Assembly: GCA_900316965.1 (NCBI GenBank)
Contig: ONEY01000002.1
Span: 1 to 64,000, forward strand
Length of the DNA stretch: 64,000 nucleotides
DNA from: an uncultured Bacteroidales bacterium
GTDB taxonomy: Bacteria; Bacteroidota; Bacteroidia; Bacteroidales; P3
Direction of reading: 5' to 3'
Below, piece by piece: positions 21,792 to 42,361 of this stretch. Below the pieces are notes generated by a model. It saw nothing but the letters and a program-made list of their open reading frames with translations, did no database searches and had not been told where the DNA came from. Position 1 is the stretch's first letter; each line of letters begins with the position of its first letter. Made by a program: the position numbers and the translations under genes.

Positions 21792-21866
21792 TTTCTTGCT
21801 TATGAGGTTATATATTATATTACAACGTCACATTGGATGAAAAAGTATAAAACAATATTTTTTTTG

Positions 21867-21874
21867 TATTTTTG
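21867..21874 (+). promoter_or_regulatory. -7 box deciding the rsmE start
   Basis: TATTTTTG, followed by C, fits the Bacteroidetes -7 consensus. It lies inside a possible longer reading frame opening at 21837, so transcription would begin after that ATG, favouring the ATG at 21900. Confidence 0.6.
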
Positions 21875-21899
21875 CCATTCCAAACAAAGAGGTTTTCTT

Positions 21900-22604: not shown

Positions 22605-22632
22605 CTCTCCATCCCTTCTCTCCACCCGCCGC

Positions 22633-22665
22633 GATAGTACTTCGATAGTACTTTGATAGTACCCA
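22633..22665. repeat. Three tandem 11-bp repeats (GATAGTACTTY)
   Basis: GATAGTACTTC, GATAGTACTTT and GATAGTACCCA follow each other without spacer. The unit is one turn of DNA. It lies 29 bp after rsmE. Confidence 0.85.
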
Positions 22666-22703
22666 GACGCTATTTTTTGGTGCCCTTCCCCAAGCACCCT
22701 TTT

Positions 22704-22736
22704 AGCGAACTCATAGCGGACTCATAGCGAACTCAT
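22704..22736. repeat. Three tandem 11-bp repeats (AGCGRACTCAT)
   Basis: AGCGAACTCAT, AGCGGACTCAT and AGCGAACTCAT in perfect tandem. Same unit length as the unrelated triplet 38 bp upstream. It is followed by a C/T-rich stretch (about 22737-22850) with no gene. Confidence 0.85.
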
Positions 22737-22912
22737 CCCCCCCCCTCATCTCACTCCTCCTTTTGCCCCCCCTCGCGTCACCCTCGCCACAACCCCTGCG
22801 TCTCCATCATCCTTTACTCATCCAGCACCCATGCGGATTTTAACATTCCACGCATGCCATATTTATGTGCCTCAACTCTTTCAAGCATGCCAAAAATATT
22901 TTTTTAATACAT

Positions 22913-22943
22913 TTTGTTGTTCCAAAAAAAGTTTATATATTTG
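22913..22943 (+). promoter_or_regulatory. Promoter of the 6365-residue protein gene
   Basis: TTTG (22913-22916), 19 bases, TATATTTG (22936-22943): an exact Bacteroidetes promoter. Start of transcription is expected near 22950, giving a leader of about 310 bases before the ATG at 23264. Confidence 0.85.
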
Positions 22944-22949
22944 CAGTAA

Positions 22950-23263
22950 CCAATTACTACTGTGATAATATCACAGTCGAAGAGTTTCACGACTGTGTAA
23001 CTACTTTATTCTTACCAATATGTAGTTGTTTTTGACCCTTCTCAATATCCCGTTGCGAAGCGTCAATTCGATTGCACTTTTACTATAATATTCTATAATT
23101 GGAGATAAAATTGTTAATAAAAGTGTTGATAAATCAATAAAAAATCTACAAAAAAACATTTTTTTTTAAAATAATACAATTATGGCTGCCCGAAAGGGCT
23201 AAAAAAGTCGATAGAAATATAAATCTCTATAATTCACTTTTTTATTAACCAAAATTATGTAAC
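22950..23263 (+). promoter_or_regulatory. Long structured 5' leader of the giant gene
   Basis: Several hairpins can be drawn. H1: ACTGTGA (22959-22965) with TCACAGT (22971-22977). H2: CACAGTCG (22972-22979) with CGACTGTG (22990-22997); H1 and H2 share CACAGT and cannot form together. H3: AACTAC (22999-23004) with GTAGTT (23022-23027), followed by GTTTTTG, which resembles a weak terminator. H4: GCCC-GAAA-GGGC (23188-23199), a GNRA-type tetraloop hairpin within a seven-codon frame ATG GCT GCC CGA AAG GGC TAA (23182-23202). The rest is A/T rich. I do not recognise a known riboswitch. Regulation by attenuation is inference. Confidence 0.5.
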
Positions 23264-26200
23264 ATGAAGCGAAAAAGTATTTTTTTGCAACTGCTTCTCC
23301 TCGTGGCCCTCTTAGTGCCATGGGTGACGCAAGCACAGGTGGCAAAAGTCTCGGAGTACGACTTCGCGGCTAATAATGTCGCCTACGCTTCCATCGCCGG
23401 CAATGGCGGCACCGTTTGGTCCGCAGCCGACGTGACTAATGGTTACACGACCATCACGATGCCGTTTGCCATGCAGTATGGCCAGACCTCCATCGGGCGT
23501 GGTGCCACGCTCTATGTGTCCGCCAACGGCTACGTCACCACTGGTGACCCCTCCATGTCGGGCATCGTGATCGCGCCTTTGGGCACACCCAGTGGCTTTG
23601 GCAACATCGCTGCCAACACCATCTACACCAAGGTGGAGTCCAACAAGGTGACCGTCGAGTGGCGTAAGCTTAAGGTTGGAAACAACGTCGTTAGTTTCCA
23701 ACTTGTGCTTACCAACACCGGTACCATCAAGTTCAACTATGGTCCGATGACTCTCTCCACCACGGCGCAGGTCTACGCAGGTATGCAGTCCTCCGCGGCT
23801 GACATCTACTGCGTCGCAACCATCAACAACCGCTGGGACACCATCGTCCCAACCTACACGTCGCTCACAGCGACTCGCACCCTCTCGCCCTCCGTCCACC
23901 CCTACTACAATGTGGACAACAACCAGGGCTTATCCTACACCTTTACTCAGCCCGAGTGCGCCAAGCCCAACAGCTTCGGCGCCGTGCCCAGCGATTTCAG
24001 CGTCATCTTCAACTGGACCGGCAACGGCTCCAAGTACCAGATCAAGTACAATGAAGGTTCCGACTTCGCACCCATGACCCAAGGCACTCTTCTTGACAAT
24101 CTGACGGGCAACACCTACACCCTCAACAACCTGCCTCAGCGCACCACCTACTACGCCTACATCCGCGCCTTCTGCGCCACCAGCGGCAGTTGGAGCGCCT
24201 GGCGCGCCGTCGCCGACGAGAGCTTCTCGACAGGTTGCGGCTACGAGGCCCTTCCTATGGTGCAGAACTTCACCACAGCGCCTGAATGCTGGGATGTGCT
24301 TGTCAGCAACAACAACGCCAGCAACACCGTTTGGCTCGATGGCGACATATTGAGAATGCGCGCAGGCGACGAGAACGGCGGCTATGCAAGCCAAGTCTTC
24401 GCCGTCCTCCCCAAGTTCAACGCCAACCTCAACAACTACGAGCTCGACATCAACGGCTATCGTGAAAGCAGCACCAGCGGTACTCTCACCCTCGGCTATT
24501 TCACCAATATCAACAATATGTCTGGCTTTGTGGTCCTCGACACTCTCGAGGGATTCACCACAACTCCTCAGAATCTCTCCTTCTATCTCACCGACTACGC
24601 TGCCATCCCCTCCGGAGCGCGCCTGGCCCTGAGATGGAGCCATAGCAGCAGCTATTGGGACTTTTTCATTGACGAGATTACCGTCAAGCCGCAGCCTACC
24701 TGCTTCCCCATCAGCAATCTGCAGGTCTCCAACATAACACCCACATCGGCCAAGTTCTCCTTCACCGATGGCCATAACACCTCCACCGCCTACCAGTTGG
24801 TTTACGGCGCTCCCGGCTTCAGCCCTGCTGCCGCCACTCCCGTAGCCATCACCAACGGAGGTGTTGTCAACACCCTCGAAGGCTCAACCCACTACGAGGC
24901 TTATGTCCGCGCCATCTGCGGCACCGAGCCGCTCGACTGGATCGGACCTGTCGACTTCTTCACTCCCTGCCCTGCTGTCACTGTTTCGGCAGCTAACCCC
25001 TTCAAAGAAGAATTCAATTCGGACGAGCTTCCCAACTGCTGGAGCAAGGAGGGTTTTGCATCTTCTGACTGGAGCTTCGAAAGCGGTAATGCTAAAGGCA
25101 GTTCATCAAGCTGCGGTACCGACTGCGAAGCTTGGCTCTATACTCCAGTGTTCAGTTTTGGTACTGGCGACATCATCCTGTCGTTTAAGCACAAACAGCA
25201 AGACTGGGCTGGAGATCAGAATTATTTGACTGTCTACTATCGCACTTCGCCATCTGATGAATGGCATCAGATTGTTCAGTACACCAATTCGATATCAGAT
25301 ATGACAAATGAAGAGATGATACTCCCCTACACGGCTAATGCATCTCAATATCAGTTGGCATTCACCAGTACTAACAGTTATGGTTATGCAGTTTATCTGG
25401 ATGACGTTAAAGTACGTCCTGCTCCGACCTGTGCACCTGTTGCTAATTTGGCCATCAGCCCCAGCAAGGTGCTGACCTGGACGGCCGGCAACGCCACCCA
25501 GTGGCAGGTACGTTATGGCATTGCAGGTTCTGACAACTATACATTCCTTTTCACCAATGCAGCCACAGCCACTCTGCCTCTCACGGGTGCAGCAGGAACG
25601 CAGTATGAAATCTCTGCGCGTTCTATCTGTGGTGCCGGTGATACCAACGATTGGGCAGATCCTGTCAATTACACTATGCCGCTCAGCCTGCCTTACAGCT
25701 GCGACTTTGAGAACGGTGCCACAGGATTCATTACCCAGAGCACTGGCAATAACGAATGGGTAGTCGGTACTGCAAAGAGTAATGGCGGCAATGGTTACTA
25801 CGTCTCCAACGACGGTGTCAGTAATGTATATGCAACTGGCAGCAACATTGCTTATGCATATGTGACCCTGCCGTTCGAGACCGCCGGCGACTATATGGTG
25901 AAGTATGATTGGACCGCCAATGGTGAGTCTACTTGGGACTTCCTCCGTGTCGCCCTGGTGCCGGATAATGTTACGCTGATTACTTCTTATAGCAATTCCT
26001 ATAACAGCACAACTCCCACGGGTTGGATTCCTGTTGACGGTGGTTCGAAATTGAATTTGAATACGTCTTGGAACACCTATGCCGAGGTTATTAATGTTAC
26101 CACCCCAGGCATCTATAAGCTTGTCTTTGCTTGGATGAATGATAATAGTGGAGAATATCAGCCTCCTGCAGCCATCGACAATGTGTCGGTGCGTGCTCTG

Positions 26201-29200
26201 AACTGCAACGCTCCTACCAACTTGGCTATCAGCCCCAGCAAGGTTCTTACTTGGACTGCCGGCAATGCCACCCAGTGGCAGGTCCGTTGGGCTGAAGATG
26301 GTAGTGATGTCTACACACTATCTAATGTTGTGACAACGGCATCTTACACTCTGCCTCTCACCGGTGGTGCAGGTACTACCTATAATGTTTCTGTCCGCTC
26401 CATCTGCGGTGCAGGCGATACACTTGATTGGACCGCCCCGCTGTCGTATACCATTCCCGTTGCAATACCCTACTCTTGCGACTTTGAGAATGGTGTCAAC
26501 GGCATTGTCTTTGCCAACGGTTCCCTGACCAATAAATGGTATATGGGTACTGCCGACAACAATACCACTGGCGGTAGCCACAGTATCTATATTTCTAACA
26601 ATAGTGGTACTTCGGCTGACTATAACAAGTCCTCCAGTTCAGTTGTCTATGCATATGTAACACTGCCTATGACCATAGCTGCCGACTATAACATTTCCTA
26701 TGACTGGAAGTGCTATGGTGAGTCTACCTACGACTATTTACGCGTTGCTTTGGTTCCTGAATCTGTCACCCTTACCCCTGGTACCTCGTTGCCTTCAGGT
26801 TTGAGTACCACGGCAACTCCTTCGACCTGGATTGCCGTAGATGGTGGCAGCAAACTCAATTTGAGCAGTTCGTGGAATTCGGTAAGCCGTACTGTCAATA
26901 TCTCCACTCCAGGCAACTACAAGCTTGTCTTTGTGTGGCGCAACGACCCTTCCAGCGGTACCAATCCTCCTGCAACTATCGACAACATTTCTGTGACGAG
27001 AATGAGTTGCAACGCTCCTGCAGATATAGCATACAGCGCTGGCACTGTTACCTGGACGGCTGGCAATGCCACCCAGTGGCAAGTTCGTCTGGCCAAGGAA
27101 GGTAGCGATAATTACACCTATGCAGTTGTCAATAATGCCAGCTACACTCCCACAGGTTTGCTTGACAATACCAGCTACACTATTGGAATTCGCTCTATTT
27201 GTGGCGTTGATGACACCTTACAATGGACTAATACCACCTTCCGTACTCCCTGCGGTGCTATTCAGGTTCTGCCTTACGCAGAGGACTTCAGCGGTTATAC
27301 TGGACTGCCGAGCTATCCCTACTACGGACCTGCTGTGGCTCCCCACTGCTGGAACTACTACAGCAACGGTACCAATACCGCCGCCACCACCGGAAGTAGT
27401 AGCTACTATGGCAGCGTGGGTACGTATAGTGGTACTTCATATGGTAGTATGATCAGCAACGATCCTTATTTCTGTATGCCGCTTTATGTTATCAGCTCCA
27501 GCACGACAAGTTCCACATACGTGAACTATAACACGCAGCGTGGTGACACCAAATATGCGGTGATGCCGCAATTTGACCAGCCGCTGAATAACATTATGGT
27601 GTCGTTCGACTATAAGTTCTCTTCCTCCAACACTGCGACGACCTATAACACGGCCCTCGAGCTTGGTTATATCACCGAGAATGATGTGAACACATTTGTC
27701 TCGATGCAGACCTATGCGGCCACCTCCACTGCTATCCAACATATTGTTGATATGTCTCTTGCCACTCTGGCAGCTTCGGCTCCCGCCGATGCCCGTCTGA
27801 CCCTCAAGTACTCTGGTACCCACAACGGTACGAGCTCTACCAGCAGCGGCACTGTGTACTGCGGTATCGACAATATCCGAGTAAAGGTTATCCCCAACTG
27901 CTTTGCTCCTCAGGTAAGCACAATGACAGCTACCAATGTAACTCCTACCAGTGCTACTGTTAGCTGGGTTGACCAGAACACTAATACCCCGACTTCGTGG
28001 AGCGTTAAGTACAGCAGCAATGCCAACTTCGACCCCGCCACTGAGGGTACTGCCACTACGGTCAACACTCCTACTATAAACCTCAACGGCCTTGAGTCTC
28101 AGACTACATATTATGTATATGTAGGTGTTGATTGCGGCAGCTTCGGTGAGAGTGAATGGAGTAATGCCTTTACTTTCACTACAGAATGCGTTCCGATGAC
28201 AGTGCTTCCGTATGTGTATGGTTTTGAAGATGCCACCACCGGCACAAGCACGGGCACTGATTTCGATGCTGAATGTTGGAAGCGCCTTAACAACGGTACT
28301 ACATATTATGGATATCCTTATATAAGTAGTTCCTCGACATACTGCCACAGCGGCAGTCGTGGTCTCTATTGGTACAATGCCACTACCACTGGCACTTATG
28401 GTGACTACCAGATTTTGGTGCTCCCCGGTGTGGATGCAACAAGCCATCCTGCCAACACTTTGCAGATGAAGTTCTGGGCAAAGGCTTCTAGTACATCTTA
28501 TCATCCTGTATTCCAGGTTGGTGTGATGACCGATCCTAATGATGTCAGCACTTTCGTCAATGTTGCAACTATTAATGTTGAGGGAACCACGTGGACAGAA
28601 TATACAGCCTTCCTTGACAGTTATACTGGCAATGGCATTTATGTGGCTCTGCGAGCCAACCGTCCTACCTCGGCGTGGTATGCCTATGTTGATGACTTTG
28701 AACTCAGTGTGATTCCGCCGTGCATCAAACCAAGCAATGCCCATACCACCGCACTGACTTACAATGCTGCTACTATCGACTGGACGCAGAATACAGTCCT
28801 CTCGACCGAGAGCAGCTGGGATGTGATGTTCGGTCCCAGCCCGCTGGATACTACCACTGCGACAGTCACCACTCTGACCGACCACGTGTTCAACGCCACT
28901 GGTCTCGACGAGCAGACAAGCTACGACTTCTATGTCCGCGCCAACTGCGGTGCTGACGGTTATAGCGACTGGAGCATTGTCTATACTTTCACTACTCCGT
29001 GTGCTCCTATAGCTGTTACCAAGTACAATCACTACACTGAAGATTTTGAAAGCACAGCAACCAATAACCTGCCTGATTGTTGGACCAAGGTAGGTACGGG
29101 TACTGTAGCTGTCTTAAGCAGTACTAGTAATGCACACAACAGTAGCTATTATCTCAGATTCAGCGGTTCGTTGAGCAATTTGGTGCTTCTGCCAGAAACT

Positions 29201-32200
29201 GAGAATGAAGCCAACACATTGCAACTGAACTTCTGGACTCGTCCTGAAAGTTATTCAAATACCAGTTGTGGATCTTTTTCTGTTGGTTATGTGACCGACG
29301 CTGAAGACGCTTCTACTTTTGTAGCTATTGCCACTTATAACCACAATGACTGGACATCTAATACACACGAAGAGAAGACTGTGTATATGGATGCTGCTCC
29401 TGCCGGTGCCCGTATGGCTATGCGCCACAATGCTGGCTCTACCTCGTGGTATTGGTATGTCGACGATATCGAGGTTATGCCTGTTCCTACTTGCCGTGTG
29501 GCTACCAACCTCACCTCGGAGAATGTCTATGCCAAGACTGCCAACCTGAGCTGGACTGATAACTGTCTTGTTACTCCCGCCGCTTGGGAGGTGCGTTATG
29601 CTCCTGTGGCTGCCGACCTCGACAACGAGGGCGTCAGCGTTGAGGTGACTGGTGCTCCTGCTCTGGCTCTTGCCAACCTGCTCCCCGAAACGGCTTATCA
29701 GTGGAAGGTTCGCAGCATCTGCGTTGCCGCTGCTAACTACAACGGTGACACCGCCGACTGGAGCAACGTCGCCAACTTCACCACGATGGCTACCTGTGTT
29801 GTTCCTACCCTTAGCTCCCCTGTGGCTTCTGCCAACAGCGTGACCTTGAGCTGGACAGAGAACACAATGCCTGTCGGTGCCACCCAGTGGGAGGTTGCCG
29901 TCGGCGAGCCTGGCTTCAACAAGAATATCGACGGTATGCACTTCACCACCAACCAGAACAGCAACTTTGTTGTCACCGGTCTGAAACACTCCACCGCTTA
30001 TCAGGTCTATGTCAGTTCGCTCTGCTCGGACGAAGACTGGAGCGAATGGAGCACTGCTGCCAACTTCAGCACCTCGTGCGCTCCTTGGCAGTATGCCGAT
30101 ATGCCGCTTGTCCAGACCTTCTCGGTCTCTGGCCTGCCCGCTTGCTGGACCAAGGCTGGCGGTTATACTATTACTAGTACGGCTTACAACAGAATGGAAA
30201 TCTACGGTACCAAGAGTATGGTTGTCCTGCCTGAGATGGCCTTTGCTCTCGACACAATCGAGATGAGCCTTGAGGCTGCCAACTACAGCGGCACAACCGA
30301 ACGCAGCTTCCAGGTTGGTTACCTTGCCGATGGTACGGATACCACTACCTTTACCGCTGTACAGACCATTACTCTCAACAGTCCTGAGTACAATACATTC
30401 AATATTTCATTTGCCGACATCAACAACACCACCGGCCGCTACATTGCCATCCGTGGTCTGCAGACAGGTACCACCTGGGCCGACTTCTATGTCAAGAATG
30501 TACAGGTGAAGCTCCGCGAGCCTATAGCCTACTTGCCAAGCAACGAGACTGAAAGCAATTGCGTTGTCTTCTACATGGCCGACACCGTCAACCATGAGAA
30601 TACCTATGCCGGCAATGTCAACATGACTCAAACCATCTATCCTGGTGAGCCTGGTAAGGTGCTCCACTTGACTGGTATGGTGGATTGCGAGTATGGTTAT
30701 GACTACCTGACAATCTACGAGGGTGTCGGAACCAACGGCACCATACTCTACTCAGGTACCGGTTATGACGACAACATCGACATCAAGACCAATAGCTACG
30801 ACTGGGTTAACAAGGGTGCTATGACCATTGTCTTCACCTCTGATGTCGACAATGCCGACCAGTATCTTGGCTTCAAGCTGTTGGCATTGTGCGAGTGCCC
30901 CACTGCCGCTCCTCAGCGCGACTGGGTTGTCGACACCAACACCGCCTTCGCATGGGTCAATGGCCGTACCTACACCAACAATGTAACTATCGCCAACCAA
31001 CCCGACAAGACTTGGAACGAGGAGTTTATGGAGAAGAATCTCGGTCAGTGCGACTCGGTGTACCACACCCTCAACCTGACTATCCATCCTACATATAACC
31101 TCACCGCTCGCAAGGAACTCTGCCAGCGCGAAAGCTTCGAGTTCTACGACACTACTCTCAACGCCACTGGCGTTTACACTCGTACAAAGAAGACTGCTTT
31201 TGGCGCCGACAGTACCACGACACTGACCCTGCAGGTACGTCCCGCTCCTACAGCTTACATCTATGTCGATAACGAACGCACAAACGGCACCATCGACGCA
31301 TTCTGCGACAATGCCGACCTCGTTATGACGGCTCGTGCCACCATCGAAGGTTCGAACTTCAAGTGGGAAGACAACAGCACCGCTGCTGTCCGCACCGTCA
31401 ACCCCCACGAGAATGCTTCTTACTCCGTTATCGCTTACGACCCGACTTACAACTGTCCCAGCTTGCCTGTCGACCTCGCTGTAACAACAACTCCTGTGCC
31501 CGAACTGAGCATCGTGGTTGAAAATGGCGACTCCGTCATCTGCGCCGGTGGTTCTACCACCCTCACGGTTGCCGATGCCAACAACACCGAATGCACTTAT
31601 GTTTGGAGCAACAATGAGACTGGCAATAGCATCACTGTAAGTCCTGCCACAACAACTACCTACACGGTCACCGCTACCACTCCTAACGCTAGCGCTTGCG
31701 TGGCCACAGCTTCCGCTGTTATCACAGTCAATCAGCTGCCTGTTGTTACTATCACTCCTTCGGCCAACGAGATCTGCCGTTACGACAGCCTCACTCTCTC
31801 GGCTACCGAGGTTGATGGTTACAACTACAACTGGACAAGCCTAAACGGCGCTACTACAGCTGCTGTTAGCTTCGTGCCCGCCAACACTGGACGTTACAAC
31901 CTGACAGTGACCGACGCCAACGGTTGCGTCAACGAGTTTACCTCGGCTACCGTCACCGTACGTCCTGCTTATAATATTAATGATACATTATCTGTATGTG
32001 AGGCTATGCTCCCCGTCACTTGGGATGCTCAAACCCTCAGCGCCGCCGGCAACTATGACCAGACTTGGAACATAGCTTACGGCTGCGACAGTACTGTCCA
32101 CCTCTATCTCGACGTGACCGCCACTGGTGTCTCCAACGCCTACGCAACCTACTGCGAAGGTAGCGCTTTCACCTTCGGTCAGGGTCAGTATATGACCAAC

Positions 32201-35200
32201 CACGTCGCCGACCTCAACGTAACCTCGTTGAGCTACATCGACAGCACCTCTGAGGAGTGCCCAGTTCAGTACAACCTCTACCTCACTGTCAATCCTAAGA
32301 AGGCCACCAGTTTCGAGGCCAACGAGTGCGACAGCTACACTTGGAATGAGGTTGAATACACTGCCGCTGGCAGCTACAACCAGACTCTCCAGACCATCAA
32401 CGGCTGCGACAGTGTGGTTACTCTGAACCTCACTCTCCGCAACTCGACCATAGGTACCGATGTCCAGACAGTTTGCGACAAACTCGTTTGGATTGATGGC
32501 AACACCTATACCGAGAACAACACCACAGCACAGTACACTATCCAGAATGAGGCTGGTTGCGACAGCGTTGTGACCCTCAACCTCACTGTGAACTATGCCA
32601 ATACCGGTGTTGACGATATCCGTTGGTGCAACACTCCGACCTATACCTGGATCAATGGTGTTACCTACGATATGAACGAGACCGATGGTAATGTTCGTTA
32701 TCTACTGCCCAATGTCACCAACCAGTACGGCTGCGACAGTACTCAGATACTGAACCTCGTGTTCAACCTCGCTGCCGACACTATGGCTTGGGCCGATACC
32801 GCTGTCTGCGACATCTTCATCCTCGACACCGTTGCTTGCGACGGCAGCCTCGTGGAATGCCAGATCAACCAGAGCGGCGCTTATCAGCTTAAGACCTCTA
32901 TCGGCAATGGCCGCTATGTCGTAAGCCGTTACAATGTCACCATCAACCACAGCGAATATCACACCACTGTGAAACGTAATGTTTGTCTGCCCTACACCTG
33001 GACCGATGCCAATGACAACTTTATCGCTGTCATCAACGACATCTTCACAGGAAGCGACACTAACATTTCGCTCACTTTCGCTGCCTCCGAGAATGGTTGC
33101 GACCGCACCGAGGTTCTACGTCTCATCAACGCCAAACCACAGACCTATAACTATGTCTCTGGTCAGGTTTGCCTCGGTGAGACCTACTCCTATGGCTCTT
33201 ATGTGTTGACCCCGGTTGAAGCCGGCGAAACCACCTATCGTCTAGCTACCGGCGAACCCAACAGCTTTGGCTGCGACTCGACCGACGTTCTCACTCTCAC
33301 CGTCTTCCCGACCTCTACTGAGGAAATGGAAATCGCTCTTTGCGAGAACTCCTTCGAGAAGGGCGCCGACAGCGCATACCACTACACCTTTGTCAACGAA
33401 GAGAATGCTACCGAGACTGTTGACTTGACCTATGCCAACGCTCTTAACGGTTCTGTTTACAACGGATCTGCCGTTGCCAACTGGACTACCGAGAACGGCT
33501 GCGCTCGCACAGTCACCGTCAACTTCACTGTCAAACCTAACACTAGTAGCTCGTTTGAGACCACCGAGCTTTACACCTACACTTGGGATCTCAATGGCGA
33601 AACCTACGACAACGAGGGCGTATATACCGCCACCGCTATCTATGGCGAGAATAGTTATGGTTGCGACAGCATCATCACTATGAACTTGACTCTGCACGAT
33701 ACTGTCTATACTGTTATCGACACCACCGTCTGCACCAGCTATAAGGGACCAGACGATGAAGTGTACCGCGATGACAGAAGCTTTACTAAAGTCCTTGCTG
33801 GTGCATCGCACTTCGGTACCGACAGCGTCATTGTCACCAACTTCTACGTCAACCAGAACCCGCTGACAGATGTCTATGTCGCTACCAACGTGCCTTACAC
33901 TTGGGTCGACGGCATTGAGTACACCGCCACTGGCGAGGCTTTCTACACCCTCTCCGACAAAAACGGTTGCGACAGTACTCTGCATCTGTTCTTCACCAAG
34001 CTCAACCCGATAGTGCTTTGCTACAGCGAGCTGCCTTACGAGACCGGCTATGGCTTCACCATCACCGACCCGATCAGCAACACCTATAGCAACAACGACC
34101 TCAATGGTAACGACACTATCGTCAGCTACGTCATCAACCAGCCCATCCGCAAAGTATTTGTCGACACTGCTTGCGACAACTACACTTGGGATGCAACGGC
34201 TTTGACCTACAATGAGAGCGGCGTTTACTTCTACGATTATACCGATTCCAACAGCTGTCCTGCTACCGACACCTTGAAGCTGACCGTGTTCCATAACACT
34301 AACAGCAGCGAGACTGTCACAGCTTGCGACACCTACACTTGGAACAACAACGGAAACAGCGTCACCAAGACTGAGAACGGCGTATACTACAGCAATTATC
34401 TTACTACCGACAATTGCCCGAGCGTCGACACTCTCTACCTCACTGTCAACTACAACACCAACAGCGGCGCTACCGCTATTGCTTGCGACAGCTACACTTG
34501 GCACGATTCTGCTTACACCGCTACTGGTGAGTACACTTACAACTACACTGCGGGCAATGGCTGCGCCAGCGTAGATACCCTCTACCTGACCATCGGAACC
34601 GCCGGCAACACCAACGTCAACGCAAATGTTTGCGACAGCTACACTTGGACTGAAAATGGCGTTACCTACACCGAAAGCACCGTCGACAGCGTGGTTTATC
34701 AGAGCGTGGCTGGCTGCGACAGCACCATCACTCTCACCCTCACCGTGCGCCACAGCACTGACTCTACTGTTACTGAGGTGGCTTGCGACACTTACACATG
34801 GGCTCAGAATGGCGAGACCTACACCGTCTCTGGCAACTATGTCGACACCATCGCCAACGAAGCTCTGTGTGACAGCATCGTAACCTTGAACTTGACTGTC
34901 AACTACAATAGCAACACTGCTTACACTGTTGCTGCTTGCGACAGCTACGAGTGGACCAACAATGGCAACACCGTCACCAATACCGTGAGCGGCACCTACT
35001 TCAGCAGCTATACAAATGTTGCTGGATGCCCCAGCGTTGATACTCTCTATCTGACCATCAACAATAGCAAGGTCTATGATACTACTATCTATAGCAGCGA
35101 AGGCTTCTACCAGTTCAACCTGGTAGCCAACGATGTCACTTACGACACCTTGTTCTCTGCCAATGCTCCTACAACCTTCGGTCCTCTGACCGCCACCCTC

Positions 35201-38200
35201 ACCACTGTCGCTGGTTGCGATAGCGTTGTTACCTACACCTTCGTTGTCGGAACAACACGCACCAAGACCGAGGTCGTCGTGGCATGCCAGGAGTACACTT
35301 GGCCACGCAACAATGTGACCTACGAGTTCATCGACGCCGCTGAAAGCGCTGCCAACAACAACGCTCTCTACAAGACTACTACAGGAACCTATATTTATGA
35401 GGCACCTATCGTTACCATTACCAACAATAATGCTATCGACAGCACCTTCATCCTGCAGCTGGTTCTCACCGAGCGTTACACTGGCTCTGCCGACACCACC
35501 TTCTTGCTGAGCAACGAGACTCTTGCCCTTGGCGACAGCGTCTTCAACTTCAGCGCTCAGAAGGCCGCAGGCTACAGAGGCTACACCGAGACAGTACAGC
35601 GTAGTGTTTATCATCCTGCCGTCAACTACTGCGACAGCTTGATCAACTACAACATCACTCTTGTTTACAACTACGATACCGCTTGGGTAGACATCTGCGC
35701 CGAGCAGACATCTGTAAACTGGGGTACTCACTCCTATGTCACCACAACTCCTGGCACCACATACATTTTCGACACTGTTGCCGACAATGGCTGGTTCCAG
35801 ACTTTGGTTGTCAACCAGAAACCTGTCATCGCTTCGACCGACACCAAGGTTGCTTGCGACACCTACACCTGGATTGACGGAGTGACCTACACCGCTAGCA
35901 ACACAACTGCTACCGATACTCTCACAGCATTTGATGGTTGTGACAGCGTAGTGACCTTGAACCTGACCATCAAACACAGCAATACCGGTGATACCACCGC
36001 TGTGTCTTGTGGCAGCTTCACTTGGTATGGCACCACCTATACCGCCAGCACCGAGGAACCCACTCATCTGTTCACCAACGCCGCTGGCTGCGACAGCACC
36101 GTGACGCTGCATCTCACCATCAATAATGCTACCACTGGCGACACCACTGCTGTGGCTTGCGAAAGCTTCACATGGTACGGCACAACATATACTGCCAGCA
36201 CCGAGGAGGCTACTCACACCTTCGCCAATGGCAACGCTACAGGTTGCGACAGCACCGTGACTCTGCACTTGACCATCAATATGCCAACCAGCAGTGTCCT
36301 TGACACCGCCGTTTGCGACAACTTTGAATGGAACAATGTTACCTACACTGAAAGCGCTAACGTTGTTATCGACAACTTGACTAACGTTAAGGGTTGCGAC
36401 AGTACCGCTACTCTCCACCTGACCATCAAGACCTCTAACACTGGTATTGACGAGGTTATCGCTTGCGACAGCTTGCGTTGGATTGACGGTACTCTCTACA
36501 CCATCAACAACTACACTGCACAGCACACTATCCAGAATGTCGCTGGTTGCGATAGCGTTGTAACACTCAACCTGACTATCAACCACGCTACACACAACAT
36601 CACAAATGTCACCGACGCTTGCGATAATTATGTGTGGACTACCTCAGGTATGAACTATGTTTATGACGCTAATGCCACCTACCCATTGACTATTACTCAC
36701 AACTATGTCAATGGTCAGAACTGCCCGAGTGTCGATACTTTGAAGCTGACTCTCCACCAGAGCTCGGCCGAGACCTTCTACGACACCGTTTGCGACAGCT
36801 ACACATGGGTTAACAATGGCAACAGTGTTACCTACACTGAAAGTGGCATCTACACCAGCAACTACATTAATACCGACAACTGCCCAAGTACAGATATGCT
36901 CTATCTAACCATCAATGTGGCTACCACCGGCAATGACGAGATCATCGCCAACAATGGCTACTACAGATATGACAATGTACTCTACACCGCTGACCGCGAC
37001 GGTGGCGAATATTTCGACACCACATTCACGGTTGCCAGTGGCCTCAATGCCGCAGGTTGCGACAGCACCACAATGCTGCACCTCCTGGTTGGTACCAATG
37101 CCATCGGTATGGAAAATCAAGTTGTCTGCGACCACTTCACCTGGATCAATGGTCACACTTATGAGTATCGTGAGAATGCTCCTGAGGGCGCACTCTACTA
37201 CGATGCCACTGCCGACGAATGGGTATATGCCCGTCCGCGTTACACTCTGCCTGGTGTCCTCAGCGCTAATGGCTTCGACACCATCGCAGTCCTCAACTTG
37301 ACCTTGACTCAGATCAACTACACCGAACAGAATGTACGCTTCCTGTTGAGCCAGCAGCAGTGCTTCCTCACCAGCGACAGCAATGCAGCTTACACTATCA
37401 ACTTCAGCGGCGCTGAGGCTGGTATTGTCGACACTGCATTCCACTTCGGTGCTACAACTCACTATTGCGACAGTGTTATCACTTACCACATCACTCTTGT
37501 CGACAACTACACCAACGTCGGTACTGAAGACATCTGCGCTACCGTTGAGGATTACACATGGAACAACACCAACATCCTTGGCGGCCACAGCAAGACCTTC
37601 GACATGACCGAGTTGATTACCGACTTCGACCACGTGACCACCATCACGCTGACCGATACCGTCTTCAAGGGCGATGCCGATAACGAATGGGTTTATGCCA
37701 AGACTCTTGTTGTCCACCCGGTTGTCTACGCCACCGAGCGCCGCACCGCTTGCGACAGCTATGAATGGAATGGCACTGTGTTCACCGCCAGCACAACCAC
37801 AGCTACCCGCTTCTTCCCGAACGGTTCTTCCTATGGTTGCGACAGTACTGTGACACTGAACCTCACTATCAAGTACAACAGTAACACTGCTTATACCGCC
37901 ACCGCTTGCGACGAGTACACATGGACTCTGAACAACAACCAGGTTTACACAACATCTGGAGACTACACCCGCGCTTACACCGCCGCTAATGGCTGCCCGA
38001 GCGTCGATACTCTCCACTTGACTGTAAACTACAAGGGCGACACTACCTACACTGTTACCGCTTGCGACAGCTACGAATGGAATAGCACAACCTACACCAC
38101 CTCTGGTCACTACGGCTTCAGCTATAATACCAACGAAGGCTGCGCCAGCGTCGATAGCCTCTTCCTCACTGTTAACCACAACAGCAATAGCGGAGAGACT

Positions 38201-41200
38201 GTTGAGTCTTGCAACAGCTACACTTGGAACAACCACGGCAACGTGATTGACACCAATGTCAGCGGTGTATACTTCAGCAACTACATCAACGCCGACAACT
38301 GTCCGAGCGTCGATACCCTCTACCTGACCATCAACAAGAACAACGGCCAGACTCTCACCGAGAGCGTCTGCGACAGCTACACTTGGGCTGTTGACGGCCA
38401 GACTTACACTCAGACGGGTGTCTATACCTTCGACAGCACCGACGCTAACGGTTGCTACGCTCAGTGCACTCTCAACCTCACCGTGGGCTACACCACCAAC
38501 AATGCTGAAACCGTCGTCGCTTGCCACGCTTACAACTGGCATGGTACCGACTACAGCACCAGCGGTGATAAGCTTTATGCTTACACCAACGATGATGGTT
38601 GCCCGAGCGTTGACACCCTCCACCTGACCATCAACAACCAGACTACCTACGCTGTTCAGACTATCGAGAACTGCGGTCCTTACACTTGGACTGTTGGCGA
38701 TAGCATTATCGGTGTATTTGATCAGAGTATCGAAACTTCGACCACTCTCACCAACCCGAGAACAATGTGCGACAGCGTGGTCTTCTTGCGCCTGACGGTC
38801 TTCGAGGCTCCTCACGCTTATGAAACTGCTACTGTTTGTGCCGACGCACTGCCTTACACATGGCGTGGTATCGAGTTTGCCGCAGCTGGTGACACCGCTA
38901 TCACCACTGCTTACACCGACAACTGCGACAGCACAATCCACTTCGCTCTTACTGTCAACCCGTTGATCAATGTTGAGATTACCGACGTTGTTTGCCTCGG
39001 TCAGGATTACAGCGCTAACAACTTTGTTATCGCTGCCGCCGACCTCACAGCAGGTACTCACACATTCAGCCACACTGACGCTTCTGTACTCACCGGTTGC
39101 GACAGCACCACGACACTGACCCTCACCGTAGGCGATGTTATCTACAATGCTGCCGTCGAGGTTACCGCTTGCGACACCTATAATTGGACTCCTGGCGATG
39201 GTGAAACCTATAACTTCACCACCAGCGGCACCTACAACTCGAATGTCTATGCCAACAACATGGGCTGCTCGAGTGTCGATGTCCTCAACCTCACCATCAA
39301 CGAGAACAGCAGCACCGGCTACAACGCTACCGCTTGCGATACCTACACTTGGAACAACACCGTCTACACCGAAAGCGGCGACTACACATTCGCCTACAGC
39401 GATGCTAACGGCTGCGCCAGCGTAGATACTCTCCACCTCGTAATCAACAACAATAGCAACAGCAGCATTACCGCAGTTGCTTGCGACAGCTACGAGTGGC
39501 ACGGTACCGTCTACACCACCAGCGGCGACTACACCTATGATTATAGCACCAATGAAGGTTGCGCCAGCGTCGACACACTCCACCTGACTGTCAACTACAA
39601 CAGCAATAGTGCTATGAACGCTACCGCTTGCGACAGCTACGAGTGGAACGGCACTGTCTACACCGAAAGTGGCGACTACACCTATAATTATAACACCACT
39701 GACGGTTGCGCCAGCGTTGACACACTCCATCTGACTGTCAACTTCAACAGCAACAGCGCCATGAACGCTACTGCTTGCGACAGCTACACATGGAACAACA
39801 CTGTCTACACCGAAAGCGGCGACTACACCTATAGCTATACCAATGCTGACGGTTGCGCTAGCGTTGACACACTCCACCTGACTGTTAACTACAACAGCAG
39901 CAATGGCGTTGTTATCACCGCTTGCGACGGATACGAATGGCACGGTCAGAACTACACTTCTACTGGCGTCTACTACTATCCTTACAACACCGAAGAAGGT
40001 TGTGCTAGCCTCGATACCCTCCGTCTTACTGTCAACTACAACAGCAACAGCTCGTTCACCGAGACCGCTTGCGACAGCTATGAATGGAACGGTACCGTCT
40101 ACACCACTAGCGGCGACTATACTTATAGCTATACTACCGTTGCCGGCTGCGCCAGCACCGACACTCTCCACTTGACTGTCAACTACAACAGCAACCTTGG
40201 CACCACCATCACCGCTTGCGACAGCTACAATTGGAAGGGTACTGACTACACCACCAGCGGCACCTACTACTTCAACTACACCACCGAGGCCGGTTGCGCC
40301 AGCGTTGATACTCTCTATCTCACCATCAACGAGAACTCGAATCGTCAGCGTACCATCATCGCTTGCGACGAGTACACTTGGAACGGCGAGACCTATTATC
40401 AGTCTGGCGACTACTACTATAGCTACACCGCTAACAACGGTTGCCCGAGCGTCGATACTCTCCACCTCACTGTCAACTACAACACTAGCACCAAGCAGAC
40501 TGTTGTGGCTTGCGATGAGTACACTTGGAATGGTACCGAATACAACGCCAGCGGCATGTACATCCACGACTATGTAGCAGCTAACAACTGCGAAAGCAGC
40601 GACACTCTGATGCTCACCATCAACAACAGCACCACGAGCAGCTTCACTGACGCAGCTTGCAACTACTACATCTGGGATGGCAGAGCTTACACCGAGAGTG
40701 GATCTTACGATTACACCTACACCACTGACAATGGTTGCGACAGCGTGGTTACTCTCAACCTCACTATCAACACCCAGAAGACCAGCTCCGAGACCGCTAC
40801 CGCTTGCGGCAGCTACACTTGGAACGGCGCTACCTACAATGTCAGCGGTATCTACACCTACAATACCACCAGCGTCGATGGTTGCGATAGCGTTGTGACA
40901 CTCGCCCTGACTATCAGCCAGGCTGTTACTTCAACTATCAATGCTTCGGCTTGCAACGGTTATGTATGGAACGGTACTCCTTACACTGCTAGCGGCAACT
41001 ATACCGCCACCTACACCGCTGCCAACGGCTGTGACAGCGTCGTTACACTTGTACTGACTATCAATCAGCCCAAGACCACGACCATTGTTGCCACCGCTTG
41101 CGACAGCTACACATGGGCAGGCACCACCTACACCACTAGCGGCAACTACAGCAATACCACTATTGCTTCCAACGGTTGCGACAGTATCGTTACACTCCAG

Positions 41201-42361
41201 CTTACTATCAACAATGCTACTGCATCGACGGTCAATGTCACAGCTTGCGAAAGCTACACCTGGATTGATGGCCAGACCTACACGGCTTCTACCACTCAGC
41301 CCACAATGACTTTCGTCAACGCTAATGGCTGCGACAGCGTTGTCACTCTCAACCTGACAGTGAACAATGCCGCAACCTCGACAACCTACATGACAGCATG
41401 CGACAGCTACACCTGGAATGGCAATGTCTACACCACCAGCGGCAACTACACCTACAATGGTACTGCTGCCAACGGTTGCGACAGCATCGCTACCCTCGTT
41501 CTTACTGTCAACAGTCCAGTAAGCTCAACAACCACGATGACTGCTTGCGAAAGCTACACTTGGAACGGCAATGTCTATACCAATAGCGGAATCTACACCT
41601 ACAATGGTGTCGCCGTTAACGGTTGCGACAGCACCGCTACACTTATCCTCACTGTCAACCAGCCCAAGACCAACATTCTCACTGTCTCTGCTTGCGACAG
41701 CTACACTTGGGACGGCACCGCATACACCACCAGCGGCGAATACAGCCAGGCCTACACAGCCGCCAACGGCTGCGATAGCATTGTGACTCTCGCCCTGACG
41801 GTCAACACCAGCGATGCTGTTGTCGACGAGGTTACCGAATGCGACGGATTCTTCTGGATCAATGGTGTATACTACACCGAGAGCACCAACACTCCGACAA
41901 TGACATTCGTTAATGCCGCCGGCTGCGACAGCGTGGTAACTTTGAATCTTACTGTCAACCACAGCGTGGAAATCCACGATTCTATCGACATCCTCGACAC
42001 CCAGTTGCCATACAACTACAACGGTTTCATCGTGAATGAGGCTGGTGACTACTGGATCAACGGTACCACCGTTAATGGATGCGACAGTTCAATCTATCTC
42101 CACGTTGGTGTTTCTCACATCGGTGTCGACGTTGTCAGCGTCCTCGACGAGGTTAAGGTTTATCCTAACCCAACTCGTGGTCATGTTACCGTCAGCGCCA
42201 ATGAGGTTGTTAAAGTTGAGGTCTTCGACCTTGTCGGCCGTCTGGTCGCTTCGTTCGATAACACTGCCAACTTCGACATCTCCAACCTGGCTGAAGGCAG
42301 CTACACACTGCGTATCACTCTGCCAGAAGGTGTGACAACACGTAGGATAGTCAAGAAGTAA
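23264..42361 (+). CDS. Giant T9SS-secreted adhesin-like protein (6365 residues)
   Basis: A signal peptide (MKRKSIFLQLLLLVALLVPW, cleavage near TQAQ) is followed by a 200-residue beta domain. Residues about 229-2417 alternate nine fibronectin-III-like units (e.g. TAGNATQWQVR) with eight MAM/choice-of-anchor-J-like units starting DFENG/PECW and ending IDNVSV. A CUB-like domain lies at about 2420-2545. Two or three Ig/PKD-like domains follow (to about 2903). Then come more than 50 Cys-containing repeats of about 49 residues (CDSYTW ... GCDSVVTLNLTV) to about 6285. A T9SS type A sorting domain (VKVYPNPTRGHVTV, VFDLVGRLVASF) ends the protein. It should be exported by Sec, cross the outer membrane through T9SS and be displayed or released; adhesion is inferred from the domains. 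No catalytic domain seen. One uninterrupted frame, own promoter and terminator. Confidence 0.93.
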   Translation: MKRKSIFLQLLLLVALLVPWVTQAQVAKVSEYDFAANNVAYASIAGNGGTVWSAADVTNGYTTITMPFAMQYGQTSIGRGATLYVSANGYVTTGDPSMSGIVIAPLGTPSGFGNIAANTIYTKVESNKVTVEWRKLKVGNNVVSFQLVLTNTGTIKFNYGPMTLSTTAQVYAGMQSSAADIYCVATINNRWDTIVPTYTSLTATRTLSPSVHPYYNVDNNQGLSYTFTQPECAKPNSFGAVPSDFSVIFNWTGNGSKYQIKYNEGSDFAPMTQGTLLDNLTGNTYTLNNLPQRTTYYAYIRAFCATSGSWSAWRAVADESFSTGCGYEALPMVQNFTTAPECWDVLVSNNNASNTVWLDGDILRMRAGDENGGYASQVFAVLPKFNANLNNYELDINGYRESSTSGTLTLGYFTNINNMSGFVVLDTLEGFTTTPQNLSFYLTDYAAIPSGARLALRWSHSSSYWDFFIDEITVKPQPTCFPISNLQVSNITPTSAKFSFTDGHNTSTAYQLVYGAPGFSPAAATPVAITNGGVVNTLEGSTHYEAYVRAICGTEPLDWIGPVDFFTPCPAVTVSAANPFKEEFNSDELPNCWSKEGFASSDWSFESGNAKGSSSSCGTDCEAWLYTPVFSFGTGDIILSFKHKQQDWAGDQNYLTVYYRTSPSDEWHQIVQYTNSISDMTNEEMILPYTANASQYQLAFTSTNSYGYAVYLDDVKVRPAPTCAPVANLAISPSKVLTWTAGNATQWQVRYGIAGSDNYTFLFTNAATATLPLTGAAGTQYEISARSICGAGDTNDWADPVNYTMPLSLPYSCDFENGATGFITQSTGNNEWVVGTAKSNGGNGYYVSNDGVSNVYATGSNIAYAYVTLPFETAGDYMVKYDWTANGESTWDFLRVALVPDNVTLITSYSNSYNSTTPTGWIPVDGGSKLNLNTSWNTYAEVINVTTPGIYKLVFAWMNDNSGEYQPPAAIDNVSVRALNCNAPTNLAISPSKVLTWTAGNATQWQVRWAEDGSDVYTLSNVVTTASYTLPLTGGAGTTYNVSVRSICGAGDTLDWTAPLSYTIPVAIPYSCDFENGVNGIVFANGSLTNKWYMGTADNNTTGGSHSIYISNNSGTSADYNKSSSSVVYAYVTLPMTIAADYNISYDWKCYGESTYDYLRVALVPESVTLTPGTSLPSGLSTTATPSTWIAVDGGSKLNLSSSWNSVSRTVNISTPGNYKLVFVWRNDPSSGTNPPATIDNISVTRMSCNAPADIAYSAGTVTWTAGNATQWQVRLAKEGSDNYTYAVVNNASYTPTGLLDNTSYTIGIRSICGVDDTLQWTNTTFRTPCGAIQVLPYAEDFSGYTGLPSYPYYGPAVAPHCWNYYSNGTNTAATTGSSSYYGSVGTYSGTSYGSMISNDPYFCMPLYVISSSTTSSTYVNYNTQRGDTKYAVMPQFDQPLNNIMVSFDYKFSSSNTATTYNTALELGYITENDVNTFVSMQTYAATSTAIQHIVDMSLATLAASAPADARLTLKYSGTHNGTSSTSSGTVYCGIDNIRVKVIPNCFAPQVSTMTATNVTPTSATVSWVDQNTNTPTSWSVKYSSNANFDPATEGTATTVNTPTINLNGLESQTTYYVYVGVDCGSFGESEWSNAFTFTTECVPMTVLPYVYGFEDATTGTSTGTDFDAECWKRLNNGTTYYGYPYISSSSTYCHSGSRGLYWYNATTTGTYGDYQILVLPGVDATSHPANTLQMKFWAKASSTSYHPVFQVGVMTDPNDVSTFVNVATINVEGTTWTEYTAFLDSYTGNGIYVALRANRPTSAWYAYVDDFELSVIPPCIKPSNAHTTALTYNAATIDWTQNTVLSTESSWDVMFGPSPLDTTTATVTTLTDHVFNATGLDEQTSYDFYVRANCGADGYSDWSIVYTFTTPCAPIAVTKYNHYTEDFESTATNNLPDCWTKVGTGTVAVLSSTSNAHNSSYYLRFSGSLSNLVLLPETENEANTLQLNFWTRPESYSNTSCGSFSVGYVTDAEDASTFVAIATYNHNDWTSNTHEEKTVYMDAAPAGARMAMRHNAGSTSWYWYVDDIEVMPVPTCRVATNLTSENVYAKTANLSWTDNCLVTPAAWEVRYAPVAADLDNEGVSVEVTGAPALALANLLPETAYQWKVRSICVAAANYNGDTADWSNVANFTTMATCVVPTLSSPVASANSVTLSWTENTMPVGATQWEVAVGEPGFNKNIDGMHFTTNQNSNFVVTGLKHSTAYQVYVSSLCSDEDWSEWSTAANFSTSCAPWQYADMPLVQTFSVSGLPACWTKAGGYTITSTAYNRMEIYGTKSMVVLPEMAFALDTIEMSLEAANYSGTTERSFQVGYLADGTDTTTFTAVQTITLNSPEYNTFNISFADINNTTGRYIAIRGLQTGTTWADFYVKNVQVKLREPIAYLPSNETESNCVVFYMADTVNHENTYAGNVNMTQTIYPGEPGKVLHLTGMVDCEYGYDYLTIYEGVGTNGTILYSGTGYDDNIDIKTNSYDWVNKGAMTIVFTSDVDNADQYLGFKLLALCECPTAAPQRDWVVDTNTAFAWVNGRTYTNNVTIANQPDKTWNEEFMEKNLGQCDSVYHTLNLTIHPTYNLTARKELCQRESFEFYDTTLNATGVYTRTKKTAFGADSTTTLTLQVRPAPTAYIYVDNERTNGTIDAFCDNADLVMTARATIEGSNFKWEDNSTAAVRTVNPHENASYSVIAYDPTYNCPSLPVDLAVTTTPVPELSIVVENGDSVICAGGSTTLTVADANNTECTYVWSNNETGNSITVSPATTTTYTVTATTPNASACVATASAVITVNQLPVVTITPSANEICRYDSLTLSATEVDGYNYNWTSLNGATTAAVSFVPANTGRYNLTVTDANGCVNEFTSATVTVRPAYNINDTLSVCEAMLPVTWDAQTLSAAGNYDQTWNIAYGCDSTVHLYLDVTATGVSNAYATYCEGSAFTFGQGQYMTNHVADLNVTSLSYIDSTSEECPVQYNLYLTVNPKKATSFEANECDSYTWNEVEYTAAGSYNQTLQTINGCDSVVTLNLTLRNSTIGTDVQTVCDKLVWIDGNTYTENNTTAQYTIQNEAGCDSVVTLNLTVNYANTGVDDIRWCNTPTYTWINGVTYDMNETDGNVRYLLPNVTNQYGCDSTQILNLVFNLAADTMAWADTAVCDIFILDTVACDGSLVECQINQSGAYQLKTSIGNGRYVVSRYNVTINHSEYHTTVKRNVCLPYTWTDANDNFIAVINDIFTGSDTNISLTFAASENGCDRTEVLRLINAKPQTYNYVSGQVCLGETYSYGSYVLTPVEAGETTYRLATGEPNSFGCDSTDVLTLTVFPTSTEEMEIALCENSFEKGADSAYHYTFVNEENATETVDLTYANALNGSVYNGSAVANWTTENGCARTVTVNFTVKPNTSSSFETTELYTYTWDLNGETYDNEGVYTATAIYGENSYGCDSIITMNLTLHDTVYTVIDTTVCTSYKGPDDEVYRDDRSFTKVLAGASHFGTDSVIVTNFYVNQNPLTDVYVATNVPYTWVDGIEYTATGEAFYTLSDKNGCDSTLHLFFTKLNPIVLCYSELPYETGYGFTITDPISNTYSNNDLNGNDTIVSYVINQPIRKVFVDTACDNYTWDATALTYNESGVYFYDYTDSNSCPATDTLKLTVFHNTNSSETVTACDTYTWNNNGNSVTKTENGVYYSNYLTTDNCPSVDTLYLTVNYNTNSGATAIACDSYTWHDSAYTATGEYTYNYTAGNGCASVDTLYLTIGTAGNTNVNANVCDSYTWTENGVTYTESTVDSVVYQSVAGCDSTITLTLTVRHSTDSTVTEVACDTYTWAQNGETYTVSGNYVDTIANEALCDSIVTLNLTVNYNSNTAYTVAACDSYEWTNNGNTVTNTVSGTYFSSYTNVAGCPSVDTLYLTINNSKVYDTTIYSSEGFYQFNLVANDVTYDTLFSANAPTTFGPLTATLTTVAGCDSVVTYTFVVGTTRTKTEVVVACQEYTWPRNNVTYEFIDAAESAANNNALYKTTTGTYIYEAPIVTITNNNAIDSTFILQLVLTERYTGSADTTFLLSNETLALGDSVFNFSAQKAAGYRGYTETVQRSVYHPAVNYCDSLINYNITLVYNYDTAWVDICAEQTSVNWGTHSYVTTTPGTTYIFDTVADNGWFQTLVVNQKPVIASTDTKVACDTYTWIDGVTYTASNTTATDTLTAFDGCDSVVTLNLTIKHSNTGDTTAVSCGSFTWYGTTYTASTEEPTHLFTNAAGCDSTVTLHLTINNATTGDTTAVACESFTWYGTTYTASTEEATHTFANGNATGCDSTVTLHLTINMPTSSVLDTAVCDNFEWNNVTYTESANVVIDNLTNVKGCDSTATLHLTIKTSNTGIDEVIACDSLRWIDGTLYTINNYTAQHTIQNVAGCDSVVTLNLTINHATHNITNVTDACDNYVWTTSGMNYVYDANATYPLTITHNYVNGQNCPSVDTLKLTLHQSSAETFYDTVCDSYTWVNNGNSVTYTESGIYTSNYINTDNCPSTDMLYLTINVATTGNDEIIANNGYYRYDNVLYTADRDGGEYFDTTFTVASGLNAAGCDSTTMLHLLVGTNAIGMENQVVCDHFTWINGHTYEYRENAPEGALYYDATADEWVYARPRYTLPGVLSANGFDTIAVLNLTLTQINYTEQNVRFLLSQQQCFLTSDSNAAYTINFSGAEAGIVDTAFHFGATTHYCDSVITYHITLVDNYTNVGTEDICATVEDYTWNNTNILGGHSKTFDMTELITDFDHVTTITLTDTVFKGDADNEWVYAKTLVVHPVVYATERRTACDSYEWNGTVFTASTTTATRFFPNGSSYGCDSTVTLNLTIKYNSNTAYTATACDEYTWTLNNNQVYTTSGDYTRAYTAANGCPSVDTLHLTVNYKGDTTYTVTACDSYEWNSTTYTTSGHYGFSYNTNEGCASVDSLFLTVNHNSNSGETVESCNSYTWNNHGNVIDTNVSGVYFSNYINADNCPSVDTLYLTINKNNGQTLTESVCDSYTWAVDGQTYTQTGVYTFDSTDANGCYAQCTLNLTVGYTTNNAETVVACHAYNWHGTDYSTSGDKLYAYTNDDGCPSVDTLHLTINNQTTYAVQTIENCGPYTWTVGDSIIGVFDQSIETSTTLTNPRTMCDSVVFLRLTVFEAPHAYETATVCADALPYTWRGIEFAAAGDTAITTAYTDNCDSTIHFALTVNPLINVEITDVVCLGQDYSANNFVIAAADLTAGTHTFSHTDASVLTGCDSTTTLTLTVGDVIYNAAVEVTACDTYNWTPGDGETYNFTTSGTYNSNVYANNMGCSSVDVLNLTINENSSTGYNATACDTYTWNNTVYTESGDYTFAYSDANGCASVDTLHLVINNNSNSSITAVACDSYEWHGTVYTTSGDYTYDYSTNEGCASVDTLHLTVNYNSNSAMNATACDSYEWNGTVYTESGDYTYNYNTTDGCASVDTLHLTVNFNSNSAMNATACDSYTWNNTVYTESGDYTYSYTNADGCASVDTLHLTVNYNSSNGVVITACDGYEWHGQNYTSTGVYYYPYNTEEGCASLDTLRLTVNYNSNSSFTETACDSYEWNGTVYTTSGDYTYSYTTVAGCASTDTLHLTVNYNSNLGTTITACDSYNWKGTDYTTSGTYYFNYTTEAGCASVDTLYLTINENSNRQRTIIACDEYTWNGETYYQSGDYYYSYTANNGCPSVDTLHLTVNYNTSTKQTVVACDEYTWNGTEYNASGMYIHDYVAANNCESSDTLMLTINNSTTSSFTDAACNYYIWDGRAYTESGSYDYTYTTDNGCDSVVTLNLTINTQKTSSETATACGSYTWNGATYNVSGIYTYNTTSVDGCDSVVTLALTISQAVTSTINASACNGYVWNGTPYTASGNYTATYTAANGCDSVVTLVLTINQPKTTTIVATACDSYTWAGTTYTTSGNYSNTTIASNGCDSIVTLQLTINNATASTVNVTACESYTWIDGQTYTASTTQPTMTFVNANGCDSVVTLNLTVNNAATSTTYMTACDSYTWNGNVYTTSGNYTYNGTAANGCDSIATLVLTVNSPVSSTTTMTACESYTWNGNVYTNSGIYTYNGVAVNGCDSTATLILTVNQPKTNILTVSACDSYTWDGTAYTTSGEYSQAYTAANGCDSIVTLALTVNTSDAVVDEVTECDGFFWINGVYYTESTNTPTMTFVNAAGCDSVVTLNLTVNHSVEIHDSIDILDTQLPYNYNGFIVNEAGDYWINGTTVNGCDSSIYLHVGVSHIGVDVVSVLDEVKVYPNPTRGHVTVSANEVVKVEVFDLVGRLVASFDNTANFDISNLAEGSYTLRITLPEGVTTRRIVKK
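31976..42120 (+). repeat. Coding tandem repeats, ~147-bp unit (CDSYxW ... GCDS)
   Basis: The C-terminal half of the giant gene is built of repeats that each encode one Cys in a C-D-S-Y-x-W motif and a second about 25-30 residues later in G-C-D/A/P-S, then L-x-L-T-V/I-N. The paired cysteines probably form a disulfide in each unit (inference). Between 31976 and about 37860 units are divergent and vary in length; from about 39300 to 41830 they are regular, 49 codons each, and several (39.3-40.5 kb) are nearly identical in DNA, pointing to recent duplication. Confidence 0.88.

Follow-up and report, generated by a model that had tools for sequence, protein, structure and literature searches.

The locus lies in a 2.4-Mb rumen-type Bacteroidales genome, the nearest named relatives of which are rumen Bacteroidales MAGs and the genus of which is represented here by 120 genomes. 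The window, meaning the whole analysed stretch of 64,000 nucleotides on contig C11, carries a giant gene with a transcript of ~19 kb. Its product is a secreted protein of 6,365 residues that combines fibronectin type III domains with a C-terminal sorting domain for type IX secretion. The octamer TATATTTG at 22936-22943 was assigned to what we take to be a Bacteroidetes-type promoter, presumably with transcription starting near 22949, and since this -7 box ends at 22943, the giant gene has a leader of ~315 nt. The leaders of B. thetaiotaomicron have a median length of 32 nt (PMC7366714). Folding of the whole window leader was better than that of its shuffles (z -4.03, 0/100 as good). The features of the locus are as follows.

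22936..22943, + strand: -7 box TATATTTG, assigned from its sequence, with a possible -33 TTG at 22917-22919 and a predicted transcription start at ~22949
22959..22977, + strand: hairpin H1, a near-perfect palindrome (9-base inverted repeat with one centre base) competing with H2
22972..22997, + strand: hairpin H2, the conserved promoter-proximal hairpin, covarying in orthologue leaders and the sole helix returned by RNAalifold
22998..23009, + strand: conserved flank TAACTACTTTAT, at an offset of 58 nt from the -7 TTTG; its consensus is UAACUAYUUUAN
22999..23034, + strand: hairpin H3, weak and AT-rich (AACTAC/GTAGTT, then GTTTTTG), overlapping part of the conserved flank, unconserved
23182..23202, + strand: ATGGCTGCCCGAAAGGGCTAA, a small frame of six sense codons and a stop around GCCC-GAAA-GGGC, found only in the window
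23242..23252, + strand: TTATTAACCAA, conserved 3' terminus of the leader, just upstream of the start codon, seen in alignment A4 and in individual orthologue leaders
23264..42361, + strand: the giant gene, 6365 codons

The gene context of the giant varies, with rsmE upstream in the window (21837-23264), a xerC-like frame followed by an hpf-like frame in several of the orthologue contexts (L062-L078) and ribosomal-protein-like frames in others, all neighbour names other than rsmE being assigned by eye. Because the neighbours differ between genomes, the leader and the gene seem to travel as a unit.

Hairpins and small frame of the window leader

In practice the H1 stem has 8 bp and closes a 3-nt loop (-8.3 kcal/mol), and H2 in the window has 8 bp and a 10-nt loop (-10.8 kcal/mol). 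Both use the CACAGT strand and are mutually exclusive, exactly where a sequence-only reading of this DNA had placed them, and the competing pair exceeds chance: two perfect 8-bp hairpins sharing one strand occurred in 0/2000 dinucleotide shuffles of the leader, while 299/2000 contained one or more perfect 8-bp hairpins with loops of 3-12. The H1 state has a total energy of -12.4 versus -10.8 for H2, because H1 leaves the 3' part free for a second small hairpin. Equilibrium folding of the growing transcript predicted H1 at 0.95 for 45 nt, H2 at 0.98 for 50 nt and H1 again above 0.9 for 60-75 nt, with H2 as the predicted minor fold in the window transcript beyond ~60 nt. The bistability is thus real on paper.

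H1 is not conserved in the orthologue alignment, with 43.2% of cells paired, the same as after sliding by three columns (slide -3), and no second H1 site with up to two mismatches was found in the host genome or in 36 relatives. As H1 is unconserved and has no second site, the H1/H2 switch is private to the host genome, where H1 may trade with H2 and so tune it. Two further ideas on H1 were dropped, namely a genome-wide operator, which was rejected with its own site as the only one in the host genome and none in the 36 relatives, and an H1 analogue displaced by three columns in the orthologues, which was unsupported.

The sequence-only reading had added a third hairpin with a following T-run at 22999-23033 and, further on, a seven-codon frame enclosing a GNRA hairpin. 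The former, H3, exists, but as a putative terminator it is weak: its energy is -4.7 kcal/mol, terminator-like sites of matching quality arose in 17/200 shuffles, which is chance level, RNAalifold returned no H3-like or terminator helix from the orthologue alignments, and the other orthologue leaders contain only scattered loose terminator-like sites. The latter is present and rare for the composition, as a GNRA hairpin with four GC pairs occurred in 0/5000 shuffles and the pattern was found three times in 64 kb on both strands; however, it is confined to the window, and no counterpart was found in the relatives, where 23182-23202 falls in a stretch of alignment A4 missing from most.

Conservation and promoter register of H2

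Orthologues were sought with the first 300 residues of the giant protein, which gave 18/120 genus genomes at E 1e-30 or better, and minus-strand leaders were reverse-complemented before comparison. Eleven leaders, including that of the window, align as ACTNCA-hairpin-UAACUAYUUUA. For the 5-bp core of H2, 83.6% of cells are paired in the 11 leaders against 22-56% in slid positions, with 9 both-side changes (0/500 shuffles), and for the exact 8-bp H2 of the window the same alignment gives 72.7% against 31-50%, with 14 both-side changes, although such counts overstate independence because the leaders are related. Omitting the close trio G094, G035 and G069 left eight leaders with 83.3% of the H2 cells paired, 10 both-side changes and 1/500 shuffles. 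The H2 region was the only helix returned by RNAalifold from whole leaders or from their first 200 nt. The loop of H2 is not conserved across leaders, and 12 leaders compared pairwise over the 49-nt 5' module have a median identity of 0.37. In most orthologues of one giant gene, the H2 sequence changes but compensatory substitutions preserve its pairing, and a helix with compensatory change in homologues is what marks a structured cis-acting leader RNA. Over their first 55 nt, the element leaders show no excess stability compared with the sequences that follow other promoters (mean z -0.57, n=9, versus -0.58, n=35), the comparison covering the 9/11 element leaders that fitted the promoter pattern used.

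The flank on the 3' side of H2 is conserved as well. A matrix built from seven orthologues, the window excluded, ranked the window flank first among 127,976 window positions. The sequence TAnnTTTG precedes the element in 18/18 leaders compared. Nine of 11 leaders place the AACU block 58 nt from the TTTG of their -7 box, and the remaining two place it at 57 and 59 nt; these offsets come from leaders first selected by a loose pattern tolerating spacings of 20-75 nt. YAACY stands 57-58 nt after this TTTG in 12/14 leaders of the H2 type, with the -7 boxes of G079 and G076 chosen knowing the spacing (an alternative box puts G079 at 45); the best 3-nt window across 500 shuffled sets held 4. G132 has UAAUC at 59, and the element is absent from the leader of G083. 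The remainder from UAACU to the ATG varies from 192 to 278 nt (SD 28 nt, eight leaders) against the near-fixed promoter register. In most orthologues H2 and its flank thus stand at a fixed promoter register, about +50 if +1 lies near 22949.

Of the regulatory RNA that the sequence-only reading had proposed just after the transcription start, the general idea holds up, since H2 is conserved, covarying and fixed to the promoter, while a terminator switch between H1 and H2 acting near 23035 does not; likewise, when conservation and covariation were examined over the orthologue leaders, H2 showed both and the H1/H2 switch failed.

A covariance model trained on seven core leaders recovered the held-out G034 (E 0.015) and, weakly, G078 (E 5.2), and gave no match to the window copy in wide or local search, nor to G085, G079 and G083. 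The window copy has its flank at the same offset as the orthologues and immediately 3' of a hairpin, so that by position and flank it is likely, not certainly, homologous to the orthologue elements. An 11-leader model (R1) matched 11/119 genus genomes, once each and before the giant gene, with no further match in these genomes up to E 2; as all 11 trained the model, these matches show restriction rather than discovery. Among the 18 orthologue genomes, the E 2 level gave four extra R1 matches, none below E 0.12; they fall in G080, G139 and G036, where the giant is preceded by another type of leader. A search of 344 genomes of the order gave matches in two genomes of this genus and, outside the genus, one weak match only (G288, E 0.014), antisense inside a reading frame. 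A DNA similarity search with the whole leader over 61 genomes returned, besides itself, only short AT-rich and promoter-motif matches. With Rfam, the window gave no leader family at the gathering threshold (tRNAs only), and in eight orthologue loci every match stayed below threshold and was AT-rich or of an unrelated kind. No published description of the element was found in a non-exhaustive literature search.

A second leader type carries TATA[TC]TAAAT at offset 47 in 4/4 orthologues (G139, G036, G105 and G080; L066, L067, L065 and L068). By pattern, this motif occurs in 6/119 genomes, three of them with orthologue leaders (G036, G139, G105), and the occurrences in G017, G141 and G006 could be due to chance. 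By eye, three of the four leaders show a hairpin with an AGTGT loop, and letters resembling TACTAAATG occur in both leader types at offsets ~21 nt apart. In two more distant relatives of the giant, L040 (G063) and L041 (G011), a long leader-initial hairpin ending at offset 54 was seen by eye, possibly a third leader type.

Genes were also observed between the 5' module of the leader and the giant, in both leader types. Toxin-antitoxin-like pairs of a nucleotidyltransferase and a HEPN/HepT gene lie at L070:4240-4958 (G069) and L068:4645-5260 (G080), and similar pairs in L069 and L071 (G035, G094); G076 (L062:166-585) has a nucleotidyltransferase-like frame and a PIN gene there. The Pfam basis for these genes covers L070, L068 and, for L062, the PIN gene only. 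In G080 (L068 ~5300-5650), three tandem copies of a ~90-base repeat (ATTCCACTGCCCCGGAGGGGC...) stand just upstream of the giant.

Possible modes of action

As the helix is kept by compensation, its flanks are conserved and the promoter register is fixed, we infer an event in early transcription. H2 may be a gene-specific, promoter-proximal hairpin that folds co-transcriptionally and acts on the early stage of transcription through a pause or the loading of a factor, a tentative reading to which we give a probability of roughly 0.4. With RNA polymerase near +60, H2 would have folded immediately behind it, leaving the conserved stretch of 11-12 nt between H2 and the RNA 3' end. Hairpin-stabilised pauses place their hairpin 11-12 nt behind the RNA end (PMC12288461), and the length of the conserved H2 flank, 11-12 nt, fits this spacing of a putative pause. 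Such a pause could allow an elongation factor, either core NusG or a specialised paralogue, to be recruited before transcription of the 19-kb gene proceeds. LoaP, a specialised NusG, can use a leader hairpin (PMC12691694). Two results on the window copy speak against this reading: H2 is its predicted minor fold beyond ~60 nt, and the seven-leader core model did not recover it.

The host genome has one NusG paralogue besides core NusG, located on another contig (G000:C18:61951-62226, in L094) with its -7 box 45 nt before the start and without a long leader of its own. NusG-family matches were found in 109/119 genus genomes, two in many of them, and in nine element genomes examined the leader of the paralogue is short, with the -7 box 44-46 nt before the start. 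Co-occurrence of the paralogue and the element was considered and rejected, as no correlation was seen among the genus genomes in a tally that parsed 44/52 paralogue loci and missed eight owing to the pattern used. The paralogue does not track the element, because it occurs in genomes without the giant, e.g., G123, G066 and G107, and G078, an element-carrying genome that is 96% complete, gave no paralogue. A more detailed version of the early-transcription reading is put forward as doubtful: a promoter-locked loading site at ~+50, in which the covarying nascent-RNA hairpin and a non-template motif would equip the polymerase with an elongation factor ahead of a gene of 15-20 kb, serving one family of giant secreted-protein genes, with the offsets 57-59 and 47 as two specificities of one device.

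A post-transcriptional role is an unlikely alternative that still deserves weight. A hairpin close to the 5' end with conserved, presumably single-stranded flanks, on a long mRNA, might shield that mRNA from decay or be bound by an RNA-binding protein or small RNA, and PMC7366714 suggests that the leaders longer than 100 nt on 13.5% of B. thetaiotaomicron mRNAs are platforms for small RNAs and RNA-binding proteins. Simple protection, however, accounts neither for the conservation of UAACUAYUUUA nor for the fixed register, the 5' stability does not exceed that after other promoters, and the element is restricted to one gene. Fixed spacing to the promoter also speaks for a DNA operator in the initial transcribed region, where a regulator would bind duplex DNA and the RNA hairpin would be incidental; several flanks do extend by eye into near-dyads, e.g., TTTAGTACTAAA, and H1 is a palindrome. 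This explanation is improbable, since the stem is kept as pairing and not as sequence, unlike a sequence-specific operator, and the H1 palindrome has no second site. That the 5' part is alike by shared ancestry alone, with no function, is less probable still: related leaders and the failure of the core model on several orthologues speak for it, whereas against it stand the pairing and length that are retained in a 49-nt module with a median identity of only 0.37 (12 leaders).

The H1/H2 switch proposed by the sequence-only reading, in which their exclusion would decide whether transcription stops at the T-run hairpin near 23035, ranks near the bottom of the explanations considered and is very improbable. 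Its competition beyond chance and the swing of predicted H1/H2 occupancy with transcript length speak for it, whereas H1 is unconserved, so that two alternative structures are not kept in homologues, and the window terminator is weak and at chance level, with no terminator helix in the alignment folds and no Rfam match. We consider hardly credible an attenuation by a leader peptide, in which ribosomes would translate a short frame across the hairpin and stop at the UAA of UAACU. The frame leading into UAAC is open for 16 codons back to +1 in 6/10 UAAC leaders and reads KLQRRREP-like in several, but 16-codon open frames are common by chance, an ATG start occurs in 0/10 leaders (GTG or TTG in 4/10), and at spacings of 57 or 59 the frame falls out of step with +1.

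Relation to known leader elements

UpxY, a NusG paralogue of Bacteroides, reportedly joins paused polymerase with the help of nascent RNA hairpins, a result attributed to Saba et al. 2024. Among known systems, the element comes near to the NusG-dependent hairpin pauses of the B. subtilis trp leader type, where the hairpin stands 11-12 nt behind the RNA 3' end and is joined by a T-rich non-template motif (PMC12288461); the flank here is 11-12 nt and partly T-rich. It differs from trp-type sites in its motif, TAACTAYTTTA instead of TTNTTT, and in being fixed to a promoter and to one gene family, and the pause here is putative. With the dfn hairpin of Bacillus, which the NusG paralogue LoaP uses, it has in common a small leader hairpin for a long and costly transcript. 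In contrast, dfn combines a UNCG hairpin with a functional downstream terminator and LoaP is described from Bacillota, Actinomycetota and Spirochaetota (consulted portion of PMC12691694), while the element here has an unconserved loop and no clear terminator was found, and it occurs in Bacteroidales.

UpxY of the Bacteroides capsule operons is also a Bacteroidetes NusG paralogue and promotes the expression of long operons, and the upxY genes lie inside their target operons (available extracts of PMC7593976 and PMC12632263), unlike the paralogue here, which lies elsewhere, has a short leader and does not track the element. Riboswitches and the leader families of Rfam share with H2 a structured leader before one gene, although no Rfam leader match was obtained here.

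The comparison of orthologues separates the conserved element, H2, from the genome-private switch that involves H1. What relatives share is H2, which is conserved and locked to the promoter in one family of giant genes; H1, H3 and the small frame belong to the host genome alone. To our knowledge, how bacterial genes of 15-20 kb are completed without loss of the polymerase has been little studied outside phages, rRNA, and capsule and antibiotic operons. The fixed position of the hairpin suggests a dedicated early control point for the giant gene, and such a leader hairpin, held in register with the promoter, flanked by conserved sequence and confined to one giant gene, offers a testable candidate for long-gene control in uncultured Bacteroidales.
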